NCBI RefSeq assembly: GCF_016313185.1
Contig: NZ_CP066218.1
Span: forward strand, 3,534,001-3,598,000
DNA length: 64,000 bases
Origin: Mycolicibacterium baixiangningiae
GTDB taxonomy: Bacteria > Actinomycetota > Actinomycetes > Mycobacteriales > Mycobacteriaceae
Direction: 5' to 3'
Positions within the stretch are counted from its first letter, which is position 1. Each line of letters begins with the position of its first letter. The position numbers and the translations under genes are program-made. The notes under the pieces are model-generated. The model was not told where the DNA came from and did no database searches. It saw nothing but the letters and a program-made list of their open reading frames with translations. Shown here piece after piece: positions 12,764 to 24,725 of the stretch.

Positions 12764-12835
12764 GCGCGATTAGCTCAGCGGGAGAGCGCTTCCCTGACAC
12801 GGAAGAGGTCACTGGTTCAATCCCAGTATCGCGCA
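12764..12835 (+). tRNA. tRNA-Val (anticodon GAC), integration site of the element
   Basis: A 72-nt cloverleaf: acceptor GCGCGAT/ATCGCGC, anticodon stem CTTCC/GGAAG with loop CTGACAC (anticodon GAC), T-arm ACTGGTTCAATCCCAGT. The CCA at 12836-12838 is encoded. The 3' portion from the T-loop to CCA (12816-12838) is duplicated exactly at 23686-23708, so insertion rebuilt an intact tRNA. Confidence 0.96.
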
Positions 12836-12838
12836 CCA
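12816..12838 (+). other. attL core (23 bp, T-loop to CCA end of tRNA-Val)
   Basis: Identical to attR at 23686-23708 over 23 bp and then diverging on both sides. It begins TTCAATCCCAG and ends GCGCACCA. Position within a tRNA 3' end plus a tyrosine integrase gene next to the other copy is the classical arrangement. Confidence 0.93.
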
Positions 12839-12852
12839 CGTTTTTGCAGGTC

Positions 12853-12882
12853 AGGCCCGGTAACTCCGGGCCTTTCTTGTTT
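12853..12882 (+). terminator. Rho-independent terminator just inside attL
   Basis: The hairpin AGGCCCGG-TAACT-CCGGGCCT is followed by TTTCTTGTTT. It ends the tRNA-Gly-Cys-Val transcript 15-45 bp after tRNA-Val. It lies on the element side of the att core, so the element supplies it; no equivalent hairpin is seen just right of attR. Confidence 0.8.
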
Positions 12883-12884
12883 CT

Positions 12885-12903
12885 GTGCCCAATACGTGCC
12901 CAA
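12885..12903 (+). repeat. Putative integrase arm-type site, attL side
   Basis: GTGCCCAATACGTGCCCAA, which is two GTGCCCAA boxes separated by TAC, 46 bp from the att core. An identical 19-mer in the same orientation lies at 23546-23564, 121 bp from the attR core. In the excised circle the two copies would flank attP, as arm-type sites do. Confidence 0.65.
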
Positions 12904-12948
12904 CACGGTCGCGTCGGGGCGTCTGCCCTCGCCAGATAGCGTTGCGAC

Positions 12949-13698
12949 ATGTCACTCGACTTCTTCCCGCGATTCGCGACAGGGCCGGTCTACTTCGCTC
13001 CGTCTGGCGGGACGTGGGAGTTCAGTGGCACAGGTGCCATGTACCTGCGCTCGTACGTGATATTGACGGCGGCGCACTGTGTGCCCGATGTCGCGGATGC
13101 CATGTTCGCGTTCCGGTCGCCGATGGAGTCGTTCGCCCGAGTGGTCGAACAGGTGATACGCCACCCGGCGATCGATCTTGCAGCGCTCGTCATATCCAAA
13201 GAGACCGCCGCGCACCCGAATGGGGTCTACTCGGAAATCGGTCATCAGCTGTCCGATGGCGGCGATTTCATCGCGTTCGGCTACCCAGCCGAAGAGGACA
13301 CCAACGTCCCGCGACTGTTCAAGGGCCACTACCAACGGCACTTCCAATATCAGGCTCCCGACGGCCGGGCGTATCTCGCAGCCGAGTTGAGCGTCCCTGC
13401 ACCGGCCGGATTGAGCGGCGGACCAGTGTCAAATGCGCACAGGCCACAAGTTCTAGACGCGATCGTCACAGCAAATCACGATTCGTCGCTGGTCATCGAT
13501 TCCTTCGAGGAGGAGGAACGCGACGGGAAGGTTTGGCGGGGCAAGATCACGCGGGTCGTGTCATATGGCATCGCGGCGATGTTGGTGCCTACTGACGTCC
13601 AGGAGTGGGTAAACACCGTCGTTGCCCTTGCCGACGCAGACACACCCGATATCGCCTCATCGCTGAGCCAGCTGCTGGCGGAAAAAGCGCAATCGTGA
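12949..13698 (+). CDS. Trypsin-like serine protease without signal peptide
   Basis: A 249-residue chymotrypsin-fold protease. The catalytic triad is readable: His43 in LTAAHCVP, Asp76 in AIDLAAL, Ser156 in PAGLSGGPV. The N-terminus (MSLDFFPRFATGPVYF) has no signal sequence or transmembrane segment, so the enzyme should act in the cytosol. The length fits a lone protease domain plus a short acidic C-terminal extension (about 225-249). It is the first gene inside attL, alone on the plus strand and 604 bp before TcmP. Cytosolic trypsin-like domains are known as effectors in several anti-phage systems; a defence role here is inference from location. Confidence 0.8.
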   Translation: MSLDFFPRFATGPVYFAPSGGTWEFSGTGAMYLRSYVILTAAHCVPDVADAMFAFRSPMESFARVVEQVIRHPAIDLAALVISKETAAHPNGVYSEIGHQLSDGGDFIAFGYPAEEDTNVPRLFKGHYQRHFQYQAPDGRAYLAAELSVPAPAGLSGGPVSNAHRPQVLDAIVTANHDSSLVIDSFEEEERDGKVWRGKITRVVSYGIAAMLVPTDVQEWVNTVVALADADTPDIASSLSQLLAEKAQS

Positions 13699-14302
13699 CA
13701 CCACACCGGCCCGCGGTTCGCGGCGAGCGCGGCCCGGCCTGATTGAACCCCACCGGCATTGCGCACACGCTCAACGTCGCCGCGAACGTGTTGGACGTGT
13801 CGCCAGCCGGTCGCTCGTAATTGTGTCGGCGGGACCGGCCAGACGTCCTGCTCTGGCTGCTGATTCGGGCCGGCGGATCAGATCGCCGACAGCCACGGCC
13901 TCATTGCGATCGTCGGGTCGACGGCCACCAACCCCGGCGCTATCGTCCAGGGCCTCGACGTCCCCGCGGCCGCGCGGACAGAACCGCAGGGAGAGACGGG
14001 CGAGCTGGTGCGCGGAAGAGCCCGCCTGCCCGCCTTCACGCAAGCTGCGTTAGACCCGACGCGATCGACTCCGAACTGAGGTTGGTCGGCAGCGGTGCGT
14101 CGCAACTGATTCGAACCGTGCGGCCCGACGGCACTCGACCCGCGTCCCTGCTAAGAAATCCGACACGCCGGACGCAGTGTCAGCATCTACGCGCAGCCGT
14201 CCGCGGCGGCGGTAGAATTCCACAGATGTGTTCACGGCGGAAGGCTCGCGGTCGATGAGTAACCGCGAAGACGCGTTGGCCATCTAGGACGATCCAATCG
14301 CG
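13699..14302. other. 604-bp gap without an intact gene (decayed coding relics)
   Basis: No open frame has both a start and convincing coding character. A plus-strand relic at 13864-14079 reads like protein (listed separately). A short conceptual stretch at about 13742-13819 also looks like a decayed reading frame. The last 100 bp should contain the TcmP promoter, but no clear -35/-10 pair is visible. Confidence 0.5.
13864..14079 (+). pseudogene. Protein-coding relic without start codon
   Basis: A 71-codon frame between TGA 13861 and TGA 14077 lacks ATG or GTG at a sensible place but reads ADQIADSHGLIAIVGSTATN and then LDVPAAARTEPQGETGELVR, typical protein composition. Probably the surviving part of a gene lost from the cargo region. 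No family assigned. Confidence 0.35.
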
Positions 14303-15454
14303 ATGCCCACCGGAACGGACGCCGGGCTGCTGGAAAAGCCCCGACCACAGTCAGTCTTCAAGCACGCGATTCTTGAGCAGTACGTCATCAGATTTGCCAC
14401 GATGACCGCAAGCAAGCTCGACCCGAAGCGGTCAGTACTGTTCGATGGATTCGCCGGCCGTGGCCGCTTCGACACCGGCGAAGCAGGATCTGCCGAACAC
14501 ATGATGCTCGCCGCCCAGAAGGTAAAGGGAGCCACCCAGATCGACCTTCTTCTCGTCGAGAGGAACTCGAAGGACTACGAGTCCCTCAACGCGGTGGCCG
14601 ACGAGTATCGCTCCCGAGGTATCCGCATCGACAGCTACATGGGGGATTGCGGCGACCACATCGGCGACGCCTTGCAGCTGGCCGAGGGAGCAAGTCTGTT
14701 TGTTTTTCTTGACCCCTGCGGCGCCGTGCTCCCGATGGACTCCATCAAGGGCATCCTCCGTGCACGGAGACGTTGGCCTCGGACCGAGGTGCTGCTGAAT
14801 TTCAGCGCCGACCTAATCAGGCGAGCTGGTGGCCAGTACAAGAAGGGCCTAGTCAATCTGGGCGGAGTCGCCAAGACAGACGCCGTGTGCGGCGGCGAGT
14901 GGTGGCGGGATGTGGCGTTGCAGTCTCATCTGACATCCGGAGGGGAAGACTGGGAGTCAGCTGCGAAGGACGTGGCGATCGAATACGCCAGGCGACTCAC
15001 CCAGGGGACCGGGTACGGATTCGTCGTCGCTCCGGTACGGCGTCAGATACATCACCAGCCCGTTTACTACTTGATCTTCCTAACCATGGACACGCACGGT
15101 CACTGGATGTTCGGCGACGCCGGGGCAAGGGCCCGCGAGAAGTGGATCGATTTCCTCGGGCCAGACCCTGACGAGCGAGAGGGAATGCTGTTCGACACAG
15201 TGACAGCGCAGTTCGATAGGGAGCACGCCGACGCCATCGCCCACATCACTGAGAACCTGCGACGGCTGACGGAGGACGGGGAACCGAAGATTGTTGTCCG
15301 CCACGTCAAGGGCGTTTTCGGAGACCTCTACGGCGAAGCCAAGCAGACTGCATACACCTCAGCTCTTCGCGCACTGGTGGCGTCGGGCGAGATCGAATTC
15401 GTGACAAAGGGCCAAAGGCCGCACCAACACGTCATCCGGAAAGCAATCCGTTAA
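14303..15454 (+). CDS. tcmP: Three-Cys-motif partner protein TcmP
   Basis: A 383-residue protein of the TcmP family (TIGR04474), recognised by the N-terminal KPRPQSVFKHAILEQYVIRF, the motif FDGFAGRGRF (47-56) and FVFLDPCG (133-140). The last two sit where class I SAM-methyltransferases carry motif I and the DPP-like motif IV, so a methyltransferase-like fold is plausible. A winged-helix-like C-terminus (YTSALRALVASGEIEFVTKG) may bind nucleic acid. TcmP is defined by proximity to the three-Cys protein, which lies convergently next door and overlaps it by the 4-bp TTAA at 15451-15454. Biochemical function is not established to my knowledge. Confidence 0.85.
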   Translation: MPTGTDAGLLEKPRPQSVFKHAILEQYVIRFATMTASKLDPKRSVLFDGFAGRGRFDTGEAGSAEHMMLAAQKVKGATQIDLLLVERNSKDYESLNAVADEYRSRGIRIDSYMGDCGDHIGDALQLAEGASLFVFLDPCGAVLPMDSIKGILRARRRWPRTEVLLNFSADLIRRAGGQYKKGLVNLGGVAKTDAVCGGEWWRDVALQSHLTSGGEDWESAAKDVAIEYARRLTQGTGYGFVVAPVRRQIHHQPVYYLIFLTMDTHGHWMFGDAGARAREKWIDFLGPDPDEREGMLFDTVTAQFDREHADAIAHITENLRRLTEDGEPKIVVRHVKGVFGDLYGEAKQTAYTSALRALVASGEIEFVTKGQRPHQHVIRKAIR

Positions 15455-16197
15455 ACCGCAGCGGCCCAAGGCATCTCGTCCCAGCGCCGGCCGTCGAGTT
15501 CCCGACCTTCGGCCTTGGGCGTGCGGCCACCCCATTGCTTGAAGAAGAACGCGACGCCGGCGTCCTGGCACACGTCGCGGATCCCACGCACCCATTCGCC
15601 GTCGAGCGGGCGATGATTCGCGCCGGACTCGCCGCCGGCGATCACCCAGTGGATGCCGTCGAGGTTCAGCCCGTCGAGCGGTCCGATCAGCGGCTCACAC
15701 GACAAGAATCGAACGGCCGCGGGAACTTCGCGAAGATGGTCGACCCGAGGCAACGCGTCGGAGTTCTCGACGGACACGCCCATCCATAAATTACTAGGCC
15801 AGTCGAGAGTTTCGCCGAGCCGGCGCAGTCGCAAGCTCCGTTTGGTGAGCACCTGGTAGGTGTGCTGCGGCGTCTCCCGGCAGACGTCGAAAACGTCTCG
15901 GATGAAGCTCACCGGCACGCGCGCGTGGAACAGATCGGACATCGAGTTCACGAACACGACGCGCGGCTGGCGCCAGCGGCGCGGCTCATCGAGCGTCTGC
16001 GGATGAAGAGTGACGCCGAAGCCTGGTCCCGACGTGCGCGGGTCACCGTCGTTCTGATACTTCTCCGAGCCCATGGCTTTCAACCGCTTCGCCAATGTCA
16101 TTGCGTAGCAGTGGTCGCAGCCCGAAGACACGCGATCGCAACCGGTGACGGGGTTCCAGGTGGCTTCGGTCCATTCGATCGCCGATCGGTCAGCCAT
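15451..16197 (-). CDS. DUF5131 / phage Gp37-Gp68 family three-Cys-motif protein
   Basis: A 248-residue protein with the CX6CX2C cluster Cys20, Cys27, Cys30 (TGCDRVSSGCDHCYA), resembling but not identical to the radical-SAM CX3CX2C. Further family motifs are FVNSMSDLFHARVP, YQVLTKRSLRL, WMGVSVEN, FLSCEPLIGPLDG, VIAGGESGANHRPL and FFFKQWGG. Members occur in phages and mobile elements and probably bind an Fe-S cluster and perhaps SAM, in a TIM-barrel related to spore photoproduct lyase. The ATG at 16197 has GAGGTGGG upstream, better than the in-frame start at 16227. Tail-to-tail with TcmP, its standard partner. Confidence 0.88.
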   Translation of the reverse strand: MADRSAIEWTEATWNPVTGCDRVSSGCDHCYAMTLAKRLKAMGSEKYQNDGDPRTSGPGFGVTLHPQTLDEPRRWRQPRVVFVNSMSDLFHARVPVSFIRDVFDVCRETPQHTYQVLTKRSLRLRRLGETLDWPSNLWMGVSVENSDALPRVDHLREVPAAVRFLSCEPLIGPLDGLNLDGIHWVIAGGESGANHRPLDGEWVRGIRDVCQDAGVAFFFKQWGGRTPKAEGRELDGRRWDEMPWAAAV

Positions 16198-16354
16198 GCC
16201 CACCTCTACAAGTCCGTTGCAATTCACCCTAGGTGACTGCGATTGATCATCACATCAGGACCACCGACCGTGTTGTTGCAGATCGCGGCAACGCTGTTCG
16301 ACCGCGAAGATATCGGCGGGGTCCGACACCCAAGCACGGCGAGCACGCGGCGCC

Positions 16355-16570
16355 TTAGTCGTCCGGCCGGGGTTCGGTCGCGGCACACGCGGCGCGGTAT
16401 GCCTGCATCGCCGGCCCGGTCTCGATCCGTACCCGCACCATCCGCCGATACCCGCTCATCCACAGCTTCGGCAGCACCAGCGATTCGCCGTCGGCGTACG
16501 GGTTGCGGTCCCCTGGCTCAGCGACCGAACCCGAGTAGAGCGCGAATATGTACTCGGCGCGCTTCGACAC
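16355..16570 (-). CDS. Small mycobacterial protein, element copy (paralogue of 23895-24092)
   Basis: A 71-residue protein beginning at GTG 16570 (SKRAEYIFALYSG). Its core NPYADGESLVLPKLWMSGYR and RMVRVRIETGPAMQAY matches the chromosomal protein at 23895-24092 almost residue for residue. It is basic and soluble, with a predicted helix around KLWMSGYRRM. I recognise it as a recurrent small mycobacterial hypothetical family but know of no function. Confidence 0.6.
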   Translation of the reverse strand: MSKRAEYIFALYSGSVAEPGDRNPYADGESLVLPKLWMSGYRRMVRVRIETGPAMQAYRAACAATEPRPDD

Positions 16571-16670
16571 CGGCCAAGCATGTACGCGCGCGCTGCCAGA
16601 TCGTTGGACCCACGCCGAGCGCCAGGACCAGGACCACGACGTCGAGGCCGGCCGACGCTCAGTCCGTCGG

Positions 16671-16973
16671 CTAGTTCGGCGCCGCGCCGATCGCGTCCTG
16701 TGTCTTTCGGCGGTACTTCGACCGCAAGCCGGTTCCTGTGCGCTCTCGGTATTCGGCCCGATACTCGCGCGCCTCATTCGCGGCCCACATGCGGCACTCG
16801 TCGCACGTACAGCCCTCGCGCCGGCGGTAGCCCGTCCGGGTGCCGAGCTCCCACCGCTCGGTAGCGGCCCTCACGCACGCCCCGCAACGCCGGCGATCGG
16901 CCGGCGCACTGTCCCGATAGGTCGGCACCAGCCGGCCACAAACGACACACGGCACGTCGGATCTGCGCGGCAC
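16671..16973 (-). CDS. Cysteine-rich zinc-binding-like protein
   Basis: A 100-residue basic protein starting at GTG 16973 with AGGAG 5 nt upstream. Paired cysteines (CVVC at residues 9-12, CGAC at 30-33, CTCDEC at 55-60) suggest one or two zinc ribbons. The C-terminal half is Arg/Glu-rich (EAREYRAEYRERTG). This is typical of small phage and mobile-element proteins related to HNH or DNA-binding factors, but no catalytic His-Asn-His is visible. Last gene of the leftward operon before the small cargo gene. Confidence 0.6.
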   Translation of the reverse strand: MPRRSDVPCVVCGRLVPTYRDSAPADRRRCGACVRAATERWELGTRTGYRRREGCTCDECRMWAANEAREYRAEYRERTGTGLRSKYRRKTQDAIGAAPN

Positions 16974-16981
16974 GTTCGCTC

Positions 16982-17307
16982 CTATCCAGCAATCGTTTTT
17001 TTGGGGGAAACGAGGAGGGGGCAGTGCCTAAGCCTCGGGGGGCGCCGTGGGGTACCCCGATGGGCACCCCGCCCTGGGTGGGCGTGAGCACGTAGACGGG
17101 CCCGCTGGACGCCAGGAGGCACGGCAGGACGTCGGATAGGTCGATGTGGGTTGCGGTGTGGTCTACGAGCAGAGCGTCCAGCACGCGGCCACGCGCGGCG
17201 GTGTCGACAGTTCGTGCTGGGATCGCGACGACCTTGCGGTGGTCCATGCCGAGTTGATTGATCAGGTCGCGGATGCGGTCGTGGTTGGCGGCGACGATGC
17301 CGATCAT
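16982..17307 (-). CDS. Unknown element protein with a -1 slippery site near its 3' end
   Basis: ATG 17307 overlaps the upstream stop (ATGA). About 100 residues: MIGIVAANHDRIRDLINQLG, then ARGRVLDALLVDHTATHIDL and LTPTQGGVPIGVPHGAPRG. The frame reaches CCCCC-AAAAAAA at 16997-17008, with the heptamer A_AAA_AAA in register. A -1 shift there gives a stop five codons later at 16982, 9 nt before the next gene's start. Unshifted reading continues to 16774 through the whole next gene, which looks non-coding. Either programmed frameshifting or a homopolymer indel (natural or from sequencing). I do not recognise the family. Confidence 0.5.
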
Positions 17308-17519
17308 CTCGCGACGTCCTGGTCCTCGACGTCGCTCGACTGTCTGGTCGTCGCCGTGGTGGTGCAGTTGCAGATGCCGCCGAGCGGACCGAGCGGCCGT
17401 GCGGGGCAGGTGTCGACATGGCTTCTGCTGATGCTCACGGCCTGGTCGTCGTCGTTGTGGTGGGCCTGACGGCCGGCGCGCCAGGAAGGTAACCGGGACT
17501 TCCGTCCTGCGCCGGCCAT
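17304..17519 (-). CDS. Small unknown element protein
   Basis: A 71-residue frame beginning MAGAGRKSRLPSW and ending in ATGA overlap with the next gene, which argues that it is translated. It contains HVDTCPARPLGPLGGICNC with three cysteines and an acidic C-terminus. Composition is less typical than its neighbours. It may be a small zinc-binding protein or a coupling leader. Confidence 0.4.
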   Translation of the reverse strand: MAGAGRKSRLPSWRAGRQAHHNDDDQAVSISRSHVDTCPARPLGPLGGICNCTTTATTRQSSDVEDQDVAR

Positions 17520-17537
17520 CAGGTGATCGTGGGTCGT

Positions 17538-18317
17538 TTACCTGTTGAAGCCGGCGGCGTTCGCGCGTGCAGCGTGGTTCCGGGCCTCGGCTTGCGCGTC
17601 CGCCTTCATCTGCGCCGCGCGCGCTTTGAACTCGTCGAGAGTGGCGAGCTTCAACGGAAGGCCACTGCGCGCAAGAATCCACACGCCTACCTCGCGGGCG
17701 CGCTCGTCTCGCGCCATCTCGTACGCGGGAGCCAGCTCGGCGAGACGCGCCGGCGTGAGGACGGTCGCCGAGTCCGCGTTGATCCTGACGCCGGCGACGG
17801 CAGCCAGCGCGTAGAAGCCGTTCGCGGCTGCGGTCCACGCCCTGACTCCGACCTGCGCGTTGTGCAGGTGGGTCATCATGGCGCCGCCGCGGGCGACCGC
17901 GCCGGCGGCATCGTTCAGGTTCACGCCGGCGTTCGCGGCGGCGGCGAGCTTCGCCGAGTGCTCGTCGAGCGCGTCGGCCCACCTGTCGAGGATGTCGTCT
18001 GCGTGGTCGCTGAGTGCGGCCAACATCAGCTGCTCGCTGCGGCTGCGTGCGGCGGCGAGGATGTTCCCCTCGGTGAGTTGCGCATTGAGCGCCATCGCCT
18101 GAATCCCTCTGTCCGAGAGATAGTCGCGGCCCTCCTGGATGGCGTCGAGGACGGCGCGGTGCAGGGATTCTCTCTGGCAGACGGTTTGGCTGGCCGCTGC
18201 GGTGAACGCTTCCGCGTCGGCGAACTGTTCGACGTAGGCGGGGGGCAGCGCGACGTGGAGCGTGTCGGCGGCGTTGGTGACGGCTTGGGCCCTGGTGTGA
18301 GCCGAAATTCTGAACAT
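17538..18317 (-). CDS. Unknown 259-residue element protein, helical
   Basis: ATG 18317 with AAAGGA upstream. It is almost wholly alpha-helical in appearance and Ala-rich, with no membrane segment and no known catalytic motif. Notable segments are ADTLHVALPPAYVEQFADAE, ALNAQLTEGNILAAARSRSE and DEFKARAAQMKADAQAEARN, the last a likely coiled coil. The gene lies immediately downstream (30 bp) of the acidic 111-residue protein and between the DNA-processing genes and the cargo. The size and position would suit a structural, scaffold-like or packaging-redirecting function in a satellite, but this is inference. Confidence 0.65.
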   Translation of the reverse strand: MFRISAHTRAQAVTNAADTLHVALPPAYVEQFADAEAFTAAASQTVCQRESLHRAVLDAIQEGRDYLSDRGIQAMALNAQLTEGNILAAARSRSEQLMLAALSDHADDILDRWADALDEHSAKLAAAANAGVNLNDAAGAVARGGAMMTHLHNAQVGVRAWTAAANGFYALAAVAGVRINADSATVLTPARLAELAPAYEMARDERAREVGVWILARSGLPLKLATLDEFKARAAQMKADAQAEARNHAARANAAGFNR

Positions 18318-18347
18318 GAGGGGGTGTCCTTTCGGGGTGGGTGACGG

Positions 18348-18683
18348 TCAGCTGTAACGGAAGTCGCGGTGCGAGCTGGGATCGCGCTTCGGCGGTGTCG
18401 TGCGGAAGGCGTTCCGGCCGTTCGAGAGGCCGGCGAAGCCGTCGTTCTCGTCGTCGAGGGTGGCGAAAAGGTCTCGCGCCCATTGCCTCTGTTCGTCGGT
18501 GTACTCGCCGGCGTCCTGGTCGTCGTCGTCCTGGTCGCCGGCGTCGTTCGATCCGGTGAACAGGTTCTTCGCGAACCGCTTGTCGCCGTCGCGCGCGCCG
18601 GGGTCTTCCAGGCGTCCGCGGAGTTGGCGAAGCTCGTCGTCGGTCAGGCTCGCGATGAAGCGGGCGCGCTCTTGCTTGTTCAC
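18348..18683 (-). CDS. Unknown acidic 111-residue element protein
   Basis: Starts at GTG 18683 in GTGA overlap with the upstream HTH gene. The N-terminal helix region (NKQERARFIASLTDDELRQL) resembles small regulatory proteins. The centre is highly acidic (DAGDQDDDDQDAGEYTDEQ). The C-terminus is basic and ends RDFRYS. It may bind a partner such as the following 259-residue protein. No family recognised. Confidence 0.6.
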   Translation of the reverse strand: MNKQERARFIASLTDDELRQLRGRLEDPGARDGDKRFAKNLFTGSNDAGDQDDDDQDAGEYTDEQRQWARDLFATLDDENDGFAGLSNGRNAFRTTPPKRDPSSHRDFRYS

Positions 18684-19066
18684 TGCTGCTTCCCTTCCAG
18701 GTGTTGGCGTAGCGCCAGTTCGTCGACGAACCAGCGGCCGGCGATCATCCGACCCCCGAGCTTCGGAGCCACCCGTCGGGCCTGCCTGACCGAGATGCGG
18801 AGGCGGGCAGCGGCTTCGGCGATCGGCACGGTCGGTTGTTCGTCCACGCCGGCAGCCTTTCTGACAGCCGGTGATCCATTGACCGATTGACCGGCTGCGG
18901 CCATCGTTTCGTTGAGTTCGCAGGCCAGGGCTTCGTAGGCTTGGTACGGAACGCCGGACATTTTGCGGTGTTTGACGGCGATCAGGGCGCAGTCCCGCGC
19001 CGCTCGAAGCGCCTGCCCGGAGAGGACCACGACGCCGCCGACGCGCGTCAGGCCGGACTCGCTCAT
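18680..19066 (-). CDS. Helix-turn-helix (excisionase/MerR-like) protein
   Basis: A 128-residue protein. The C-terminal half (about 75-125: VPIAEAAARLRISVRQARRV then GGRMIAGRWFVDELALRQHL) is a winged-helix DNA-binding domain of the excisionase/MerR type. The N-terminal half (LSGQALRAARDCALIAVKHR) is helical and may dimerise. ATG 19066 overlaps the WhiB-like stop (ATGA). It is probably a transcriptional regulator or accessory recombination factor for the element. Confidence 0.65.
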   Translation of the reverse strand: MSESGLTRVGGVVVLSGQALRAARDCALIAVKHRKMSGVPYQAYEALACELNETMAAAGQSVNGSPAVRKAAGVDEQPTVPIAEAAARLRISVRQARRVAPKLGGRMIAGRWFVDELALRQHLEGKQQ

Positions 19067-19398
19067 GATTCCGCCGCGGAGGCGGTGAGCGTGGCCGGCG
19101 TCCTGGTCTTCGCCGGCGTTCCGCCGGCTGTGATCACCAGGCCGGCGATGACGCCGGCTGGACGTCGTGCGGCCGGCAGGGCGGTGAGCCACGCGCGGCA
19201 GCGGGTCTGGGCCTCGCAGGCGCCGCAGAGCCGTAGTGCCTCGCGGCGGGCGTCGTCGACTTCGGTCTTGGTGAGCCGGCCGGTCATGCGGTGCTCGCCG
19301 ACGGTCCGCTCGTAGAGAGCAGATCGGCCTTTGCACCGCGCACCCGGCAGCGCGGGAATGGCGCCCAGCAGCGCCCGCGTCGTGTCCCAGTCGCTCAT
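19063..19398 (-). CDS. WhiB-like iron-sulfur protein of the element
   Basis: A 111-residue protein with the WhiB cysteine set: Cys22, then Cys58-X2-Cys61-X5-Cys67 (LCGACEAQTRCRAW), which in the family holds a 4Fe-4S cluster. The following G[VI]WGG-like turn is AGVIAGLV, so tryptophan and one glycine are missing. The basic C-terminal tail that normally contacts DNA is weak. Mycobacteriophage WhiB homologues interfere with host WhiB2 and influence infection; a similar host-manipulating or regulatory role is plausible. ATG 19398 overlaps the HNH stop. Confidence 0.75.
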   Translation of the reverse strand: MSDWDTTRALLGAIPALPGARCKGRSALYERTVGEHRMTGRLTKTEVDDARREALRLCGACEAQTRCRAWLTALPAARRPAGVIAGLVITAGGTPAKTRTPATLTASAAES

Positions 19399-19814
19399 GC
19401 GACGGCCTCTCGCCAACTGCGCCGACTGCACGGTGTGCAGGACGGGCGCACGTTCTCCAACGTGTGCGGCCCGCGGTGGCGGACCGGCACCGGGTAATGG
19501 TCGAGTTCGTCGAACGGGCCTCCGCAGTGAGCGCACGCGTCGCCATAACGGGCGATGACGTCGGCGCGCGTGAACGTCTCGATAACTGGCTCGAAGCCGG
19601 ACTGGCGGGCGCGCTGGCGGTACATCGACTCCCAGCCGATGTGTGGGTTGGCGGCGGGGTAGGCACGGTGATACTTCGCGCGAGTCTCACGGATGGCGTC
19701 ATGCACCTTGCGGCACGCTTTGCACTGGGCCTGGCGCCCGTCGCCCCTGCCATTGCGTCGGTGGAATGCGTCCAGCGGCAGGGTCTGGCCGCAACTACTG
19801 CACGTCTTGTTCAT
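19395..19814 (-). CDS. HNH endonuclease
   Basis: A 139-residue protein. An N-terminal zinc ribbon (CSSC at 5-8, CKAC at 31-34, with the LPLDAFHRR spacing of the phage-type family) precedes the HNH motif: CAHCGG (94-99), ELDHYPV with the general-base His106, ENVRPSC with Asn121, and CTPC (126-129). In phages such enzymes assist terminase or nick DNA; in an element without terminase it may nick for replication or mobilisation, or cleave competitors. ATG 19814 overlaps the preceding gene (ATGA). Confidence 0.85.
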   Translation of the reverse strand: MNKTCSSCGQTLPLDAFHRRNGRGDGRQAQCKACRKVHDAIRETRAKYHRAYPAANPHIGWESMYRQRARQSGFEPVIETFTRADVIARYGDACAHCGGPFDELDHYPVPVRHRGPHTLENVRPSCTPCSRRSWREAVA

Positions 19815-20083
19815 GGGTCCTGGTCCTGGTCGTTGTCGTGGTCGGTATCGGTCGCGTCATGCAGCGGCTCGCTGAACGAGCGGGTCGGGCGGGTCGCCGC
19901 GGCCTGGTGCTCGACGTCGGTCGGGCTCGGGCTCGGCGGGCAGCGGCGGACGCACGGCACCCGTCGCCGGCGCGGGCCATGGCAGTCGTCTTCGACGAGG
20001 CAGAACTCGCCCGGTTCCGCGCTGCACGTCGGGCACGGCACGTCGATGGCGCCGCGGTACGCCTCAGGAATCGGGCGGCTCAC
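19811..20083 (-). CDS. Small zinc-finger-like protein
   Basis: A 90-residue protein with PCPTCSAEPGEFCLVEDDC and a second cluster VPCVRRCPP, the pattern of the small zinc-binding proteins that accompany mycobacteriophage and actinophage DNA-metabolism genes. The acidic tail DTDHDNDQDQDP is unusual. Both ends overlap neighbours by ATGA, so it is an integral part of the operon. Confidence 0.6.
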   Translation of the reverse strand: MSRPIPEAYRGAIDVPCPTCSAEPGEFCLVEDDCHGPRRRRVPCVRRCPPSPSPTDVEHQAAATRPTRSFSEPLHDATDTDHDNDQDQDP

Positions 20084-21090
20084 GCGGACTCCCTGGCAGC
20101 GATCGCGGCGTCATCGCATCGAGTGCAGTCGGAGGGCGGCACCTTGAGATGGCCGTGGCGTGGGCAGCGCGGCCCGTAGGTTCCTCGAATCCACGACGGC
20201 GGCGGCGGCTTGGGTGCTGGTGCTGGTCGCTCAACCCGCGGTGACTCGGCGACGCTCGACAAGAGCCGCAGCAGTGCGGTTTCCTTCTGGCGCTGCTGCC
20301 ATGCCTCGATCTCGTCGTTGTCTCGCTTGCATGCGCGGCATGGTTCGCCGACGTCGCCGTCGGGGTGCCGCTTGCACTTCGGCTCGGGCCGGCGGTCGAA
20401 GTCGGGCTCCACGATCTCCCCGTCGACAACCGTCCCGCCGTCCGGGCTTTCGACGCGTTGGGTCACCAGCTCGCGGCCGGCCGGTTCGGCAGATTCGACG
20501 TCGTGTGGCTGTTGTTCGTCCTCGGACAAATCTTCCGGGGGGTGGGCGTCTCCTGTGTCGGGGACGGTCTCGACGTCGAGCGGTTCGGGCCTGTCTGGCG
20601 CCGCGCCTCCCTCTAGACCTCCATATAAACCTTCATAGAGAACTACAGGAACGCCATTCTCGCTGGCAGAGGGCGAATCCGCGGCCTGAGTCGTCACCAC
20701 TTCTGGGCCTGAATCGTCACCACTTATGGCACCGCGCGTCACCACTTCTGGGCTTGAGTCGTCACCACTTCCGTAAGTGGTGACGCAATAGTCACCACTT
20801 CCGACCTGCGGAAACCGCAACCGCCACGTGTCGCCGCTGAGATAGCCACGACCCCGTTTTCCTGCTGCTAACCACTCGATGTAACCCGCGGCTTTCAGCG
20901 CGGCGTATGCCCGCTTGATAGATCGCACATCGCGACCCATCCGCTCAGCGACGGTCTTCTGACGAACACAGAACGTGCCGTCGTCGACCGACGTCGAAGT
21001 GCTGAGGTCCATCGCCACGCGGGCGTAGGAGTCGTCGAGCGCCTTGTCCCGAGCAACGGCGCGTAACCATTGGTGCTTGGGAAAGGTCAT
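20080..21090 (-). CDS. Replication-initiator-like winged-helix protein carrying iterons
   Basis: A 336-residue protein starting at ATG 21090 (MTFPKHQWLRAVARDK), which overlaps the upstream stop. Residues 1-85 form a winged helix like plasmid and element replication initiators or helix-turn-helix primosomal factors (QKTVAERMGRDVRSIKRAYA, then LKAAGYIEW). The middle (about 95-260) is acidic and disordered and covers the iteron DNA. The C-terminus has two Cys/His clusters (CKRHPDGDVGEPCRACKRD and CPRHGHLKVPPSDCTRCD). The combination of DNA-binding domain and internal repeats suggests that it binds its own coding DNA to start replication after excision. It has no polymerase or helicase domain, so host enzymes would be needed. 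Confidence 0.65.
   Translation of the reverse strand: MTFPKHQWLRAVARDKALDDSYARVAMDLSTSTSVDDGTFCVRQKTVAERMGRDVRSIKRAYAALKAAGYIEWLAAGKRGRGYLSGDTWRLRFPQVGSGDYCVTTYGSGDDSSPEVVTRGAISGDDSGPEVVTTQAADSPSASENGVPVVLYEGLYGGLEGGAAPDRPEPLDVETVPDTGDAHPPEDLSEDEQQPHDVESAEPAGRELVTQRVESPDGGTVVDGEIVEPDFDRRPEPKCKRHPDGDVGEPCRACKRDNDEIEAWQQRQKETALLRLLSSVAESPRVERPAPAPKPPPPSWIRGTYGPRCPRHGHLKVPPSDCTRCDDAAIAARESA
20692..20800. repeat. Iteron array, candidate replication origin of the element
   Basis: Five direct copies of CGTCACCACTT (20692, 20715, 20737, 20760, and AGTCACCACTT at 20790) and one inverted copy (20775-20785). Spacing is 22-23 bp for the first four, about two helical turns. Copies 4 and 5 form the 10-bp-arm palindrome GTCACCACTT-N4-AAGTGGTGAC at 20761-20784. 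In the overlapping gene the same DNA word is read in two different frames (as SGD and as EVVT), so conservation is at DNA level. Confidence 0.75.
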
Positions 21091-21533
21091 GGGACACCGC
21101 GGTTCTGCTGCTGTGGTGTCCAATGCCGGTCGGGGTGGCATCCGAAGCAGCCCCAAGCGCCGGCCTGGTGGTGCATGATCTGCCCGCAGCCGTCACACCG
21201 GGGCTTGCGGTGAACCTCGCAGACATCGCCCTGGCAGGCAACCTTCATTCGACACGGCCGTCCTGCTGTGGTCGGCTCACCGCAACGCGGATCGCCGTGG
21301 ATGCGTCGGCGCCAAACTGCCGGCAGTGGACCGATCTGTTCGTGTGATTGATCGCCGCTCCCGCACCGGGGGTGCTCGGCGTTCAGCTCCGCGTCGTCGA
21401 TCATCCACAGCGTGTCGCGGCCGTCGTCGGTGACTGCGACTGCGATCGAGTGGCCTGGTGCGCCGACATCACAAAGACAGGCCGATCGTTCCCAGTCGAC
21501 CAGGGCGAACCGGTCCACATCTCCGCCTGCCAT
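21087..21533 (-). CDS. Cys/His-rich unknown element protein
   Basis: About 148 residues from ATG 21533 (GTG 21536 possible). The N-terminal half (SIAVAVTDDGRDTLWMIDDA) looks like a small beta domain. The C-terminal half has four Cys/His clusters (RCGEPTTAGRPCRMKV, CEVHRKPRCDGCG, CFGCH), i.e. several zinc-binding knuckles. Such proteins are common in actinophage early regions. First gene of the long coupled series leading leftward; its stop overlaps the replication-like gene (ATGA). Confidence 0.6.
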   Translation of the reverse strand: MAGGDVDRFALVDWERSACLCDVGAPGHSIAVAVTDDGRDTLWMIDDAELNAEHPRCGSGDQSHEQIGPLPAVWRRRIHGDPRCGEPTTAGRPCRMKVACQGDVCEVHRKPRCDGCGQIMHHQAGAWGCFGCHPDRHWTPQQQNRGVP

Positions 21534-21599
21534 CACGCACCACCGGCGACACGACTCCGCGTCATCCGTCGGTGTGCGGCGCGGATATTAAGCTGGTGG

Positions 21600-21656
21600 G
21601 AGTCCGACGCCGTGGACTCTGATAGAGCCGTCTCGTTGCCCGCGAGGCGGCTTTTT
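21600..21656 (+). terminator. Plus-strand hairpin terminator with no plus-strand gene
   Basis: The stem AGCCGTCTCG/CGAGGCGGCT (21626-21635 and 21643-21652, one G-T pair) with a 7-nt loop is followed by TTTTT, a textbook terminator for rightward transcription. An additional repeat GAGTCC-N8-GGACTC lies at 21600-21619. All nearby genes point left, so it may end an unannotated rightward RNA. It lies in the 136-bp gap between the two leftward genes. Confidence 0.5.
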
Positions 21657-21669
21657 CGTTGGCCGGTCA

Positions 21670-21879
21670 TCAGGCCGCGCCGCGTCGGAGGATCGCGACG
21701 ATCCGATCGCGCTGCTCATCAGTCAGCGGACTCGTCGAGCGCTCTATCTCGCACATGGCAGAGGCGGCGCTGATCCTCGCGACCAGGAGTTCACTCGAAG
21801 TGCCGTCCGGAGGGTCTACGTATAGCGCCCGCGCCTGTTGCCATACCGGATCGTTGACGTAGGTCGCGCGAGTCGCCAT
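21670..21879 (-). CDS. Small unknown element protein
   Basis: A 69-residue protein MATRATYVNDPVWQQARALY..., helical, with LLVARISAASAMCEIERSTS and a C-terminal DEQRDRIVAILRRGAA. Its ATG shares one base with the stop of the excisionase-like gene (TAATG), indicating coupling. It may be an accessory to the HTH protein. No known family recognised. Confidence 0.6.
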   Translation of the reverse strand: MATRATYVNDPVWQQARALYVDPPDGTSSELLVARISAASAMCEIERSTSPLTDEQRDRIVAILRRGAA

Positions 21880-22076
21880 TACGCGCCACCGCCGAAGGGC
21901 TGCATCACAACGTCGTCGATCTCGTTGAGGTCGACGCGGATAAGGCGAGGGCCGTTGCGGTAGCCGGTGATTCGCCCGTCTGCGATCATCTGGCGGATCG
22001 TTCTCGACGTCACGCCGATGTACTCGGCTGCGTCCGCGATTGATCCGTACCGGCGCCGATTGGGAGTGTTCTGCAC
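21879..22076 (-). CDS. xis: Excisionase-like helix-turn-helix protein
   Basis: A 65-residue winged-helix protein: SIADAAEYIGVTSRTIRQMI then DGRITGYRNGPRLIRVDLNE, the canonical excisionase-family (MerR-like) DNA-binding domain. GTG 22076 is preceded by AAGGGAA. It lies 313 bp downstream of int in the same orientation, the usual partnership for a tyrosine-integrase element, and should bend attachment-site DNA to favour excision or regulate the leftward operon. Confidence 0.78.
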   Translation of the reverse strand: MQNTPNRRRYGSIADAAEYIGVTSRTIRQMIADGRITGYRNGPRLIRVDLNEIDDVVMQPFGGGA

Positions 22077-22389
22077 AAGGGGTTCCCTTCTGAACAGGAA
22101 CAGCCGAGCGACAGATAGACCATTTGGGTCTGTTCTGTGCTCGGCTGCCGGTTCAGCAAGTCCCAGTTTGGGACTCAGCGGGTGACCCCGGTTCGGGGTG
22201 TGCGCCGTTCGTCTCAGCTTCTACGATCTCGGCGGTCCGGGGTTCCCGGTTGGTGGTGCGCCGCCGAATCCCGCCTGTGTAGCGGGTGTGTCGCCTGTAA
22301 GCCTCAATTAGCGTCGGTGTTCGGTTGTGGTTCCGAAGGTTAACAGAATGCCGCGACACGTCGCGTAAGGCAGCGACTCCGCGTCTCCC
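22077..22389. other. Control region between int and xis with three hairpins
   Basis: No gene. It contains a long imperfect inverted repeat at 22101-22147 (outer arms CAGCCGAGC/GCTCGGCTG, inner GACAGATAGACC/GGGTCTGTTCTGT), then AGTCCCA-GTT-TGGGACT at 22159-22175 and ACCCCG-GTT-CGGGGT at 22184-22199, both with a GTT loop. Probably holds the leftward operon promoter, the int terminator and operator sites. None has a clear T-run on the minus strand. Confidence 0.55.
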
Positions 22390-23514
22390 TTATCCATTCG
22401 CCGCCAGCTTCGACAGCAGTGCGGCGATCTCGCGATCGCGCCCCTGCGCGGCGTGCTGATACCGCATCGCGGCTTGCGGTGTCGAGTGTCCAAGACGCGC
22501 CATCAGTTCTGCCAAGCTGGCGCCGGTTGCCGCGGCCAGGACGGCGCCGGAATGCCGCAGATCGTGCCACCGCAGATCGTCGCGGCCCGCCTCTGCGCGC
22601 GCCTTATACCAGTGCCGGTAAAGCGTTGACGGCTGTAGATGCTCGCCAGCTTCGTTCGGAAATATGAGCGAATCTGCTTTCTTCTCAACGTACTTCGACA
22701 GATGATCTTCGATCTGCGGGATGATGTGCGGCGGGATCGCGACGTCGCGGATACCGGCGTCCGACTTCGGGGTCGTGACTGCGAACGTGCCGCCTTGCGT
22801 GCGGACCGCGGCGCGGCGAATACGGATCACTTCGTCGCCCAGGTCGATGTCCCCACGGCGCAGCTCGACAGTCTCGCCGAAACGCATCGCGCACCAGGAC
22901 GCGAGGATGACCATCAGTTGCAGCCGCTCGGGCATCGCGGCCGTGACGGTCGCGAGTTCGTCGATCGACGCCGGCCGAATCTTGTGAACGCGCTTGGCGC
23001 GGCCCGCGCCGGTGATCCGGCAGGGGTTCGAGTCGATCAGTTCATCGTTGACGGCGCTCGTCATGATCGTCCGGATCAGGCTGTAGGCGTGGCTGCGCAT
23101 CGTGGGCCGGTCGACGAGCGCGCCGGCGTGCCACTCACGGACGTCCTTCGGGGTAATCGCGGCGATCTGGCGGGCGCCGAACTCCGGTAGCAGATGGTCT
23201 TCGAGGATCGCGTAGTAGTGCTCGCGGGTGCGGTCCTTGATCGGACGTCCGGCGACCTGTCGGCCTTCCACCCATGCGGCGGCGTAGGCGCCGAACGTGA
23301 TCGCCTCCCGCTTCCTCTCGGCCGTCGCGTCCCAGACTCCCCGGTCGATCTCGCGGCGCTTGGCGACGACGAATGCCTCGGCGTCGATCCGGGCGCCGAA
23401 CGTCGCCGGCGCGGTGTGACGCGCGCCGTCCGGGCCGGTGTAGCGGACCTGGAAACGTCCCGACGGTAGCTTGCGAATGGTGGCGAAGGACCGCTTCTCG
23501 CGGGTGCGTGGCAT
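22390..23514 (-). CDS. int: Tyrosine site-specific integrase
   Basis: A 374-residue tyrosine recombinase. An arm-binding-like N-terminus (SFATIRKLPSGRFQVRYTGP), then a core-binding SAM-like domain (about 75-165) and the catalytic domain. Catalytic residues are visible: Arg in WCAMRFGETVELRR (about 210), His317-X-X-Arg320 in WHDLRHSGA, His343 in LGHSTPQAAM, and the nucleophile Tyr352 in MRYQHA. ATG 23514 has GGAG just upstream. The gene lies 172 bp from attR and reads away from it. It belongs to the phiRv2/AICE-like family of actinobacterial integrases that use tRNA genes. Confidence 0.95.
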   Translation of the reverse strand: MPRTREKRSFATIRKLPSGRFQVRYTGPDGARHTAPATFGARIDAEAFVVAKRREIDRGVWDATAERKREAITFGAYAAAWVEGRQVAGRPIKDRTREHYYAILEDHLLPEFGARQIAAITPKDVREWHAGALVDRPTMRSHAYSLIRTIMTSAVNDELIDSNPCRITGAGRAKRVHKIRPASIDELATVTAAMPERLQLMVILASWCAMRFGETVELRRGDIDLGDEVIRIRRAAVRTQGGTFAVTTPKSDAGIRDVAIPPHIIPQIEDHLSKYVEKKADSLIFPNEAGEHLQPSTLYRHWYKARAEAGRDDLRWHDLRHSGAVLAAATGASLAELMARLGHSTPQAAMRYQHAAQGRDREIAALLSKLAANG

Positions 23515-23685
23515 GGCTCTCCGTGGTGGTCAGTATCGCGGCAGCGTGCCCAATACGTGCCCAATGAACCTACATCAGGTTCCATTTGGCTCCACTTGGC
23601 TCACGCGATACTGTCCGTCGTGTCGCCTGGTCAGGTGCCCTTTTGGCAGGTCACGACGCTGACCCGAAAATTGCGACTGGCCTAC
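23515..23685. other. attP-derived arm region between int and attR
   Basis: No gene. Holds the arm-type 19-mer at 23546-23564, a tandem TCCATTTGGC/TCCACTTGGC (23580-23599) and a partial hairpin around 23630-23655. Should contain the int promoter and integrase/excisionase binding sites. Confidence 0.55.
23546..23564 (+). repeat. Putative integrase arm-type site, attR side
   Basis: Identical 19-mer GTGCCCAATACGTGCCCAA to 12885-12903, same orientation, 121 bp before the attR core. Consists of two GTGCCCAA boxes spaced by TAC. Confidence 0.65.
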
Positions 23686-23708
23686 TTCAATCCCAGTATC
23701 GCGCACCA
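23686..23708 (+). other. attR core (23 bp)
   Basis: Exact copy of 12816-12838 (T-loop to CCA of tRNA-Val GAC). The sequence to its left is not tRNA-like, so only the 3' fragment of the tRNA is present. Marks the right end of the element. Confidence 0.93.
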
Positions 23709-23894: not shown

Positions 23895-24092
23895 CTACGC
23901 GCGCCCCCTACGCGCCTGCAGATATGCCTGCATCGCCGGCCCTGTATGGATACGGACGTGCACCATGCGTAGGTAGCCGCGCATCCAGAGTTTCGCGAGG
24001 ACCACGGACCGCCCGGCATACGGGTTTGCGTCGCCGACGTCTGCTAGCGAGCCCTCAAGCAGCGCCCGCGTCGCTTCCTGCCGCAGTGTCAT
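23895..24092 (-). CDS. Small mycobacterial protein, chromosomal paralogue of 16355-16570
   Basis: A 65-residue protein from ATG 24092 (MTLRQEATRALLEG). Its core NPYAGRSVVLAKLWMRGYLR and RMVHVRIHTGPAMQAY is closely similar to the protein inside the element. Basic and soluble. It lies 187 bp beyond attR in a gene-poor stretch. No function known to me. Confidence 0.6.
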   Translation of the reverse strand: MTLRQEATRALLEGSLADVGDANPYAGRSVVLAKLWMRGYLRMVHVRIHTGPAMQAYLQARRGRA

Positions 24093-24424: not shown

Positions 24425-24637
24425 TGGCGCCTGCAGCGCCTCTGGGGCTTCGCCAACCTTGCGCAGTGGGTGAGGCACCCGCCGGGCCCTCTATGGACCG
24501 CCAACGCTGTTCTTCGGCACGCTCACAATCCGGCGCCGTATCCGCCCAACGCGAATAGGCCGCAGGGAGATCACATCTCGGCGTCGCCTGGCAAATACCT
24601 GTTTCATCCGACGCGTGCCCGGGCATGCGGTCCCTAG
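24425..24637 (+). pseudogene. Coding relic without start codon
   Basis: A 70-codon frame bounded by TAG 24422 and TAG 24635, lacking a usable start. It reads LWGFANLAQWVRHPPGPLWT and NPAPYPPNANRPQGDHISAS, protein-like composition. Probably the tail of a degraded gene. No family assigned. Confidence 0.3.
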
Positions 24638-24725
24638 GTCACGTGGGGTTCAGAAGCGAAGCCTGGCGGGACCGCACTTGGCGGCAGAACGCATGGGACG
24701 GACACGCCGCACGCTCAGACGGCAT

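Follow-up and report, generated by a model that had tools for sequence, protein, structure and literature searches.

The locus described here raises the question of how a small mobile element with no recognisable virion or conjugation genes might pass between mycobacterial hosts. The window (the full 64,000-nt stretch of Mycolicibacterium baixiangningiae DNA that was analysed, to which all element coordinates refer) contains a 10.9-kb element, positions 12839-23708, integrated at tRNA-Val(GAC), and an earlier note on this DNA had read it as a phage satellite or small integrative element that might rely on a helper. That reading is supported by evidence of mobility from a relative with an empty site (genome G002) and by the fact that no structural or conjugation genes were recognised. 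Judged from its sequence, the element is very probably a capsid-less, cohesive-end (cos)-type phage satellite of a cluster-G-like phage: it has a recombinase and attachment repeats, no full virion gene set, and a packaging signal or gene shared with phages.

The perfect 23-bp attachment (att) repeats reported in the earlier note are confirmed, lying 10,870 bp apart from start to start (Table 1). Just inside both ends is a 19-bp repeat with only these two copies in the window, even with 3 mismatches allowed (0.03 expected by chance), and the pair may represent integrase arm sites. The block is not a fixed part of the chromosome, because in G002, the one relative in which the empty site was analysed in detail (distances between the flanks vary among other relatives), the same flanks lie 384 bp apart, between the equivalents of window positions 12836 and 25440, versus 12,604 bp here; the tRNA cluster is 87% identical, the right flank 80%, and a 21-bp core is retained. 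A 61-bp stretch inside the 384 bp matches window 24620-24678 (84%) and is located 125 bp from the tRNA end in G002 versus 11,784 bp in the window. G002 lacks not only the element but also about 0.8 kb to the right of attR, possibly left over from an earlier element inserted here. This stretch holds, a short way outside attR, a second gene of the gp5/RMF-like type to which gene D of the element belongs (23895-24092, minus strand; 71% identical to gene D over 49 aa).

The element has relatives across the genus, defined by the 259-aa product of gene G, which finds matches in 18 of 297 Mycobacterium genomes (E<=0.001). Sixteen loci (L023-L038) were fetched, as was L039, a named locus of M. asiaticum; a stop-containing fragment (L037) and a locus at a contig end (L038) were left out, giving 16 for comparison (the window, L023-L036 and L039), over which genes were counted by tblastn at E<=1e-3 across the whole fetched loci. 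A profile of G recovers 16/16 of them, gene D is present in 12, and the integrase is of the tyrosine type in nine and the serine type in five. tRNA genes were sought in the window and L023-L038, L039 being outside this search, and all seven comparison loci with a tRNA gene (the window and six others; Val in three, Pro in two, Ser and Gly) have its 3' part repeated over 21-45 bp, the repeats lying 9.6-13.0 kb apart with G in between. That relatives of the element sit at other tRNA genes or use a serine integrase is further evidence against a fixed part of the chromosome. Outside these loci, G had no match in 50,697 phage records, in 72,556 plasmids or in two pattern scans of IMG/VR, and fold searches for it found nothing. 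In a set of 5.8 billion proteins there are at least 41 relatives of G among the 8000 candidates scored, and every source-named organism among those listed is a mycobacterium. Together with H, its upstream neighbour, G is the hallmark of a Mycobacterium element family. Several relatives of G carry the public name aldehyde dehydrogenase, apparently a propagated misannotation.

Across the family, the interval from G to D is a variable packaging slot, and it is here that the link with phages was found. A hidden Markov model (HMM) was built from the slot DNA of five satellites (window, L023, L025, L032 and L039) with no phage included, and a second model from 12 satellites. Of the 11 remaining G loci, eight contain a site detected by the first HMM at E<=0.01 (L033, L031, L034, L026, L036, L028, L027 and a half site in L024). 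When it was applied to the joined genome ends of six phages, the match ran across the junction in Angel (47.9 bits) and Sneeze (42.3 bits); Ximenita scored 14.5 and TM4 10.4, slightly above noise yet at the junction, and Lumos and Giles gave no match. The best score over 160 dinucleotide-shuffled loci was 8.9 bits. Two prophage regions scored 32.7 and 24.1 bits, the site lying between HNH and TerS. The published overhangs of Sneeze (5'-TCCCATGGCAT) and Jane (CCCCATGGCAT) are both 3' and 11 bases long, according to the sections of the source covered (PMC5356059), and the HMM match on Sneeze spans its overhang. The 11-mer of the window cos aligned with them is CCCCGAGGCTT (17030-17040, minus strand), equal to that of Jane at 8/11 bases. 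The Sneeze 11-mer is unchanged in the cos of L085 and the Jane 11-mer in L083 and L084, three further loci introduced below. Exact long cos patterns had no match in IMG/VR.

The genes around cos point to the same phage group. A terminase small subunit (TerS) gene is found in 4/16 G loci, clearly in L026 and L034 (phrog_1459, 8.7e-31 and 2.5e-26) and weakly in L029 and L030 (2.7e-5 and 9.6e-5). The TerS encoded directly after cos in L026 shares 59% identity with its Sneeze counterpart, the TerS of L034 37%. The large subunit (TerL) occurs in two of the 16, L029 (phrog_9, 8.5e-55) and L030, both of which also have TerS and the order HNH-cos-TerS-TerL; L028 carries an HNH gene in the slot. In the window, gene E occupies the position of TerS in the phage, first after cos; its copy in L026 matches phrog_4234 at 2.9e-5, and tblastn of gene E against phages returned no match. 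Over 58 aa, gene D and Sneeze gp5 share 45% identity (87% for the D of L029), and gene D has matches in 138 Mycobacterium phage records, gp5 being located between the head protease and scaffold genes. Gene F, on the other side of cos, resembles gp64, the last Sneeze gene before the right end, and may be the descendant of a terminase piece. Its family, phrog_2074, also matches part of the L029 satellite TerL (E 3.9e-5). The proposed reliance on a helper gains from the cluster G cos match together with these two genes, whose phage relatives stand beside cos or capsid genes.

Pfam and PHROGs were each run on 17 open reading frames (ORFs) of the element, NCBIfam on nine of these and PADLOC on eight, and no capsid, portal, lysis, relaxase or FtsK family, nor any tail gene, was recognised, in agreement with the absence of virion and conjugation genes claimed beforehand. 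Primase was likewise not recognised in the element scans. Weak matches of the Xis protein to a terminase small subunit (phrog_57, 0.0013) and a tape measure protein (PF20155, 0.091), and of gene K to a terminase small subunit (phrog_4581, 0.075), were rejected as signs of packaging or tail proteins, as excisionase or endonuclease families match far better. An integrase, Xis and cargo without virion genes would suit any small integrative element, spread by generalised transduction or by the conjugation machinery of another element, with the cos-like stretch incidental. This is very unlikely, as the cos match spans the phage end junction and other members and prophage regions also have the site next to TerS or HNH; in addition, no relaxase family was found in the general scans, in which oriT was not searched for.

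The same cos is not confined to elements with G. The 12-satellite model matches 45/297 genomes of the genus at E<=0.01, G loci included and the weak ones uncertain, and 19 loci without G were examined, the remaining weak matches being outside the comparison; in these 19 the G profile finds nothing at E<=1, versus 16/16 G loci. Ten (L082-L086, L090-L092, L094 and L096) have a protein of about 186 aa, X, upstream of cos, nine of them together with one of about 134 aa, Y; the AlphaFold2 (AF2) model of X has an N-terminal hairpin of long helices. Five others (L081, L088, L093, L097 and L098) have scaffold and major capsid genes near cos, also recognised by PF05065, and two (L089 and L095) have another 255-aa protein. 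In the last two, L087 and L099, the order is that of a phage: HNH, cos, TerS, TerL (56% and 49% to Sneeze), portal, protease. The motif is thereby confirmed as a phage cos; the two loci were called prophage regions, with no PF05065 capsid beside them in a fetched stretch that ends about 9 kb past cos. In L090, gene I and the start of H are followed by Y, X and cos, so that XY stands where H-G stands, whereas capsid genes are found on either side of cos and their equivalence of place with H-G is partial. None of the 35 loci compared has two of G, X and capsid in one element, the L024 capsid belonging to a separate neighbour, although no probability can be attached to this mutual exclusion because the loci are related by descent and were partly chosen by G. 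Queries with individual capsid, scaffold, portal, protease, X and Y proteins matched none of the 16 G loci, but they also miss the L024 capsid and are hence less sensitive than the family search. The exclusion of G with capsid and XY suggests a role in the control of head assembly or packaging. It is tentatively proposed, as a possibility somewhat less probable than its contrary, that H-G, XY and scaffold plus capsid are three interchangeable solutions in mycobacterial cos satellites, G being a new protein, with no recognised relative in sequence or fold, that redirects head size or packaging in satellites using a cluster-G-like coat protein.

The capsid-bearing loci also raise the possibility that the window element belongs to an established class. 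Candidate phage-inducible chromosomal islands (PICIs) of Mycobacterium, including phiRv1 and phiRv2, have been defined by an integrase and a major capsid protein, and resemble the window family in using tyrosine integrases at tRNA genes or serine integrases elsewhere, some having terminase or replication genes; no cos is discussed in the portions of the paper covered (PMC10654092). Membership of that class would fit the shared genus, the similar size and integrase types, and the genes that capsid-bearing elements with the same cos have in common with the window (for example J, L and N in L081). It is nevertheless extremely improbable: no capsid family of Pfam or PHROGs matches the element, and a PF05065 search of the 13 genomes holding 15 of the 16 G loci gave capsid matches in seven, none inside an element. 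The window family, with H-G and no recognised capsid gene, therefore falls outside a class that the covered portions of PMC10654092 define by its capsid gene. The PF05065 capsid match closest to an element, in genome G146, begins 5.9 kb past G on the far side of a second integrase and is still covered by the fetched stretch L024. That region (L024, L047) has a 96% identical integrase, half a cos and a shortened match to the trypsin-like gene, followed by the second integrase and the nearby capsid gene, and looks like a composite or a rearranged tandem.

cos-phage terminases bind and cut cos and pack DNA up to the next cos, and helpers pack PICIs once these have excised and replicated from their iterons. 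The element would excise when a cluster-G-like helper replicates in the cell and would then replicate from its own origin. The iterons of the earlier note are confirmed and fall within the Rep-like gene M, where GTCACCACTT occurs in five direct copies (steps of 23, 22, 23 and 30 bp) and one inverted copy within 108 bp; the element thus appears to have its own replication module, with gene M as putative initiator and the repeats as presumed origin. Different repeated words at 21-33-bp steps occur near the Rep gene position in L025, L026 and L027, as expected for element-specific iterons, while a simple word count found no iteron-like set near this position in most other loci. The helper terminase would recognise the shared cos and cut it to cohesive ends at the 11-base overhang, the DNA would be packed into heads built from helper proteins, and after injection it would circularise via cos and integrate at tRNA-Val of the next host. 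Gene E might act with the terminase, and, in what is the weakest step, the H-G pair may serve to match head assembly or packaging to a 10-13-kb genome.

Several observations weigh against a functional satellite of this kind. The coding sequence of G is spread over more than one frame in L034 and L036, so that not every member is intact, and the first cos HMM misses L029, L030 and L035, two points that slightly lower the confidence placed in the reading. With the 12-satellite model the sites of L029 (18.7 bits) and L030 (16.0 bits), located between HNH and TerS, are weak, and L035 and L038 have none. The frame of gene F reaches cos without a stop, so that the gene is probably vestigial, and F is truncated in L023; gene K is present in 1/16 loci. 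No Stl-like divergent repressor was recognised next to int in the scans; a helix-turn-helix (HTH) protein (gene I) and a WhiB-like protein (gene J) are present. The resident prophage of the window genome (capsid and TerL, contig 18-23 kb) is without a matching cos, so that the genome itself offers no visible helper, and the helper was assigned from phages of M. smegmatis, not from a phage of this host; induction, packaging and transfer are themselves predictions from sequence. Some of these features would suit a cluster-G-like prophage reduced to a remnant by loss of its virion genes, with cos, the integrase and some early genes retained, since the gp5-like and gp64-like genes and cos are common to such phages, F looks degenerate and G is broken in two members. 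Such an origin is nonetheless unlikely, given that the att repeats are perfect, length stays within 9.6-13.0 kb in the seven bounded members, G is unmatched in the phage records and IMG/VR scans, and H accompanies G in 15 of the 16 loci (themselves chosen by G) although integrases are of two types and replication genes differ.

With the satellite assignment preferred, close parallels include cos-type PICIs such as SaPIbov5 and those of E. coli, which have int, xis, rep with iterons, a cos shared with the helper and no virion genes. The window element likewise has int, xis, a Rep-like gene with iterons and a phage-shared cos, but neither a Stl/Str pair nor a primase was recognised in it and it comes from another bacterial phylum; to our knowledge, H-G is not known in those islands. 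The Liefievirus (cluster G) phages Sneeze and Angel share cos, the gp5-like gene, the gp64-like gene (Sneeze only) and, with some members, a related TerS, but are 41-42-kb phages with virion genes, and G is unmatched in the phage collection. The phage-inducible chromosomal minimalist island (PICMI) of Vibrio is also small and capsid-less and protects its host, but at 6 kb it integrates beside fis, and in the sections covered its authors report neither cos nor pac nor terS (PMC10803314), whereas the window element sits at tRNA-Val, has a cos and belongs to a family with TerS beside cos in 4/16 members. A literature search, with subscription papers and supplements outside its coverage, found no publication on mycobacterial cos or capsid-less satellites as a class.

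For mycobacteria this would be a class of satellites without a capsid gene whose likely helper group can be named and whose packaging signal is placed to the base, which makes helper dependence directly testable in M. smegmatis. The occurrence of one cos beside both capsid-bearing and capsid-less gene sets may indicate how satellites and phages trade head genes around a single packaging site. Cluster G includes the phage BPs. Cluster G phages could be hampered by satellites that have such a cos in common with them, or could carry these satellites, and BPs is described as therapeutically useful in the covered part of PMC10465359. Shared cos or pac sites are named as a way of pairing such elements with helpers in the portions covered of a review (PMC11389934).

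The remaining features named in the earlier note are confirmed too. The tyrosine integrase is supported by Pfam, PHROG and NCBIfam, and R-K-HxxR-H-Y, which we take to be the catalytic motif of such enzymes, is readable in gene Q; the excisionase-like gene is confirmed by TIGR01764 (2.7e-10), and genes H to M (18348-21096) are joined by four-base overlaps in the proposed ATGA-coupled operon. The terminator after the tRNA gene is present (12853-12873), but the region has about as many such sites as chance would give (7 against 6.0 expected).

Table 1. Features of the element and its insertion site, in window positions; gene counts are over the 16 G loci compared.
Feature	Position	Strand	Basis
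tRNA-Val(GAC), integration target	12764..12838	+	ARAGORN; Rfam
attL core, 23 bp	12816..12838	+	perfect direct repeat, last 23 bases of tRNA gene
Candidate integrase arm-binding repeat, left	12885..12903	+	19 bp, perfect; putative role
Gene A, trypsin-like peptidase, cargo, candidate defence	12949..13698	+	PF13365 1.7e-8; PADLOC RT-Protease_XI 6e-10, LmuA 1e-6, Avs1b 9.6e-5
Gene B, TcmP-like partner of DUF5131 protein, cargo, candidate defence	14303..15454	+	TIGR04474 1.3e-36; PDC-M41A 2.5e-8
Gene C, DUF5131 protein, cargo	15451..16197	-	PF07505 4.5e-102; PDC-M41B 2e-110
Gene D, homologue of cluster G phage gp5, RMF-like domain	16355..16570	-	PF04957 1.4e-7; phrog_1757 3.9e-15
Gene E, zinc-ribbon-like, first gene after cos	16671..16973	-	6/16 loci; weak HNH-family phrog_4234 0.0038
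cos site	16996..17080	-	62.6 bits, 12-satellite model, only match in window
Gene F, homologue of Sneeze gp64	17083..17304	-	phrog_2074 1.2e-15; 44% to gp64, E 4e-15
Gene G, 259-aa all-helical hallmark protein	17538..18317	-	18/297 genus genomes; AF2 pLDDT 92
Gene H, acidic, 111 aa, upstream of G	18348..18683	-	15/16 loci
Gene I, HTH protein	18680..19066	-	weak HTH_17 match 0.075; 11/16 loci
Gene J, WhiB-like protein	19063..19398	-	PF02467 0.0016 (below its cut-off); phrog_472 0.0019; 11/16 loci
Gene K, HNH/endonuclease VII-like	19395..19814	-	phrog_1035 5.6e-22; window only among 16 loci
Gene L, zinc-binding-like protein	19811..20083	-	weak family matches; 6/16 loci
Gene M, Rep-like, N-terminal winged HTH, start uncertain	20080..21096	-	HTH_36 1.7e-5; phage replication initiation families 5e-4, 9e-4
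Iterons, candidate origin inside gene M	20693..20800	+	5 direct and 1 inverted copy of 10-mer core; putative role
Gene N, conserved protein	21087..21479	-	6/16 loci
Gene O, small conserved protein	21670..21879	-	5/16 loci
Gene P, excisionase-like (Xis)	21879..22076	-	TIGR01764 2.7e-10
Gene Q, tyrosine integrase	22390..23514	-	PF00589 1.2e-19; phrog_1 1.7e-63; NCBIfam support
Candidate integrase arm-binding repeat, right	23546..23564	+	perfect copy of left 19-mer; putative role
attR core, 23 bp	23686..23708	+	perfect direct repeat of attL core

Elsewhere in the window genome (G000), contig positions 18-23 kb (L044-L045) hold the only PF05065 capsid and PF03354 terminase matches and represent the resident prophage, and a weak cos-like site beside an HNH match (L108, 8583-8653; G000 C1:5433583) is probably a prophage remnant. 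The cargo genes A, B and C look like candidate anti-phage defence genes. The DUF5131 proteins of L025, L031, L033, L082 and L092 are 92-94% identical to gene C, while the TcmP-like partner in L033 and L082 shares just 30-32% identity with that of the window and the partner in L025 and L031 is another protein, differences that point to partner swapping in a candidate defence pair.

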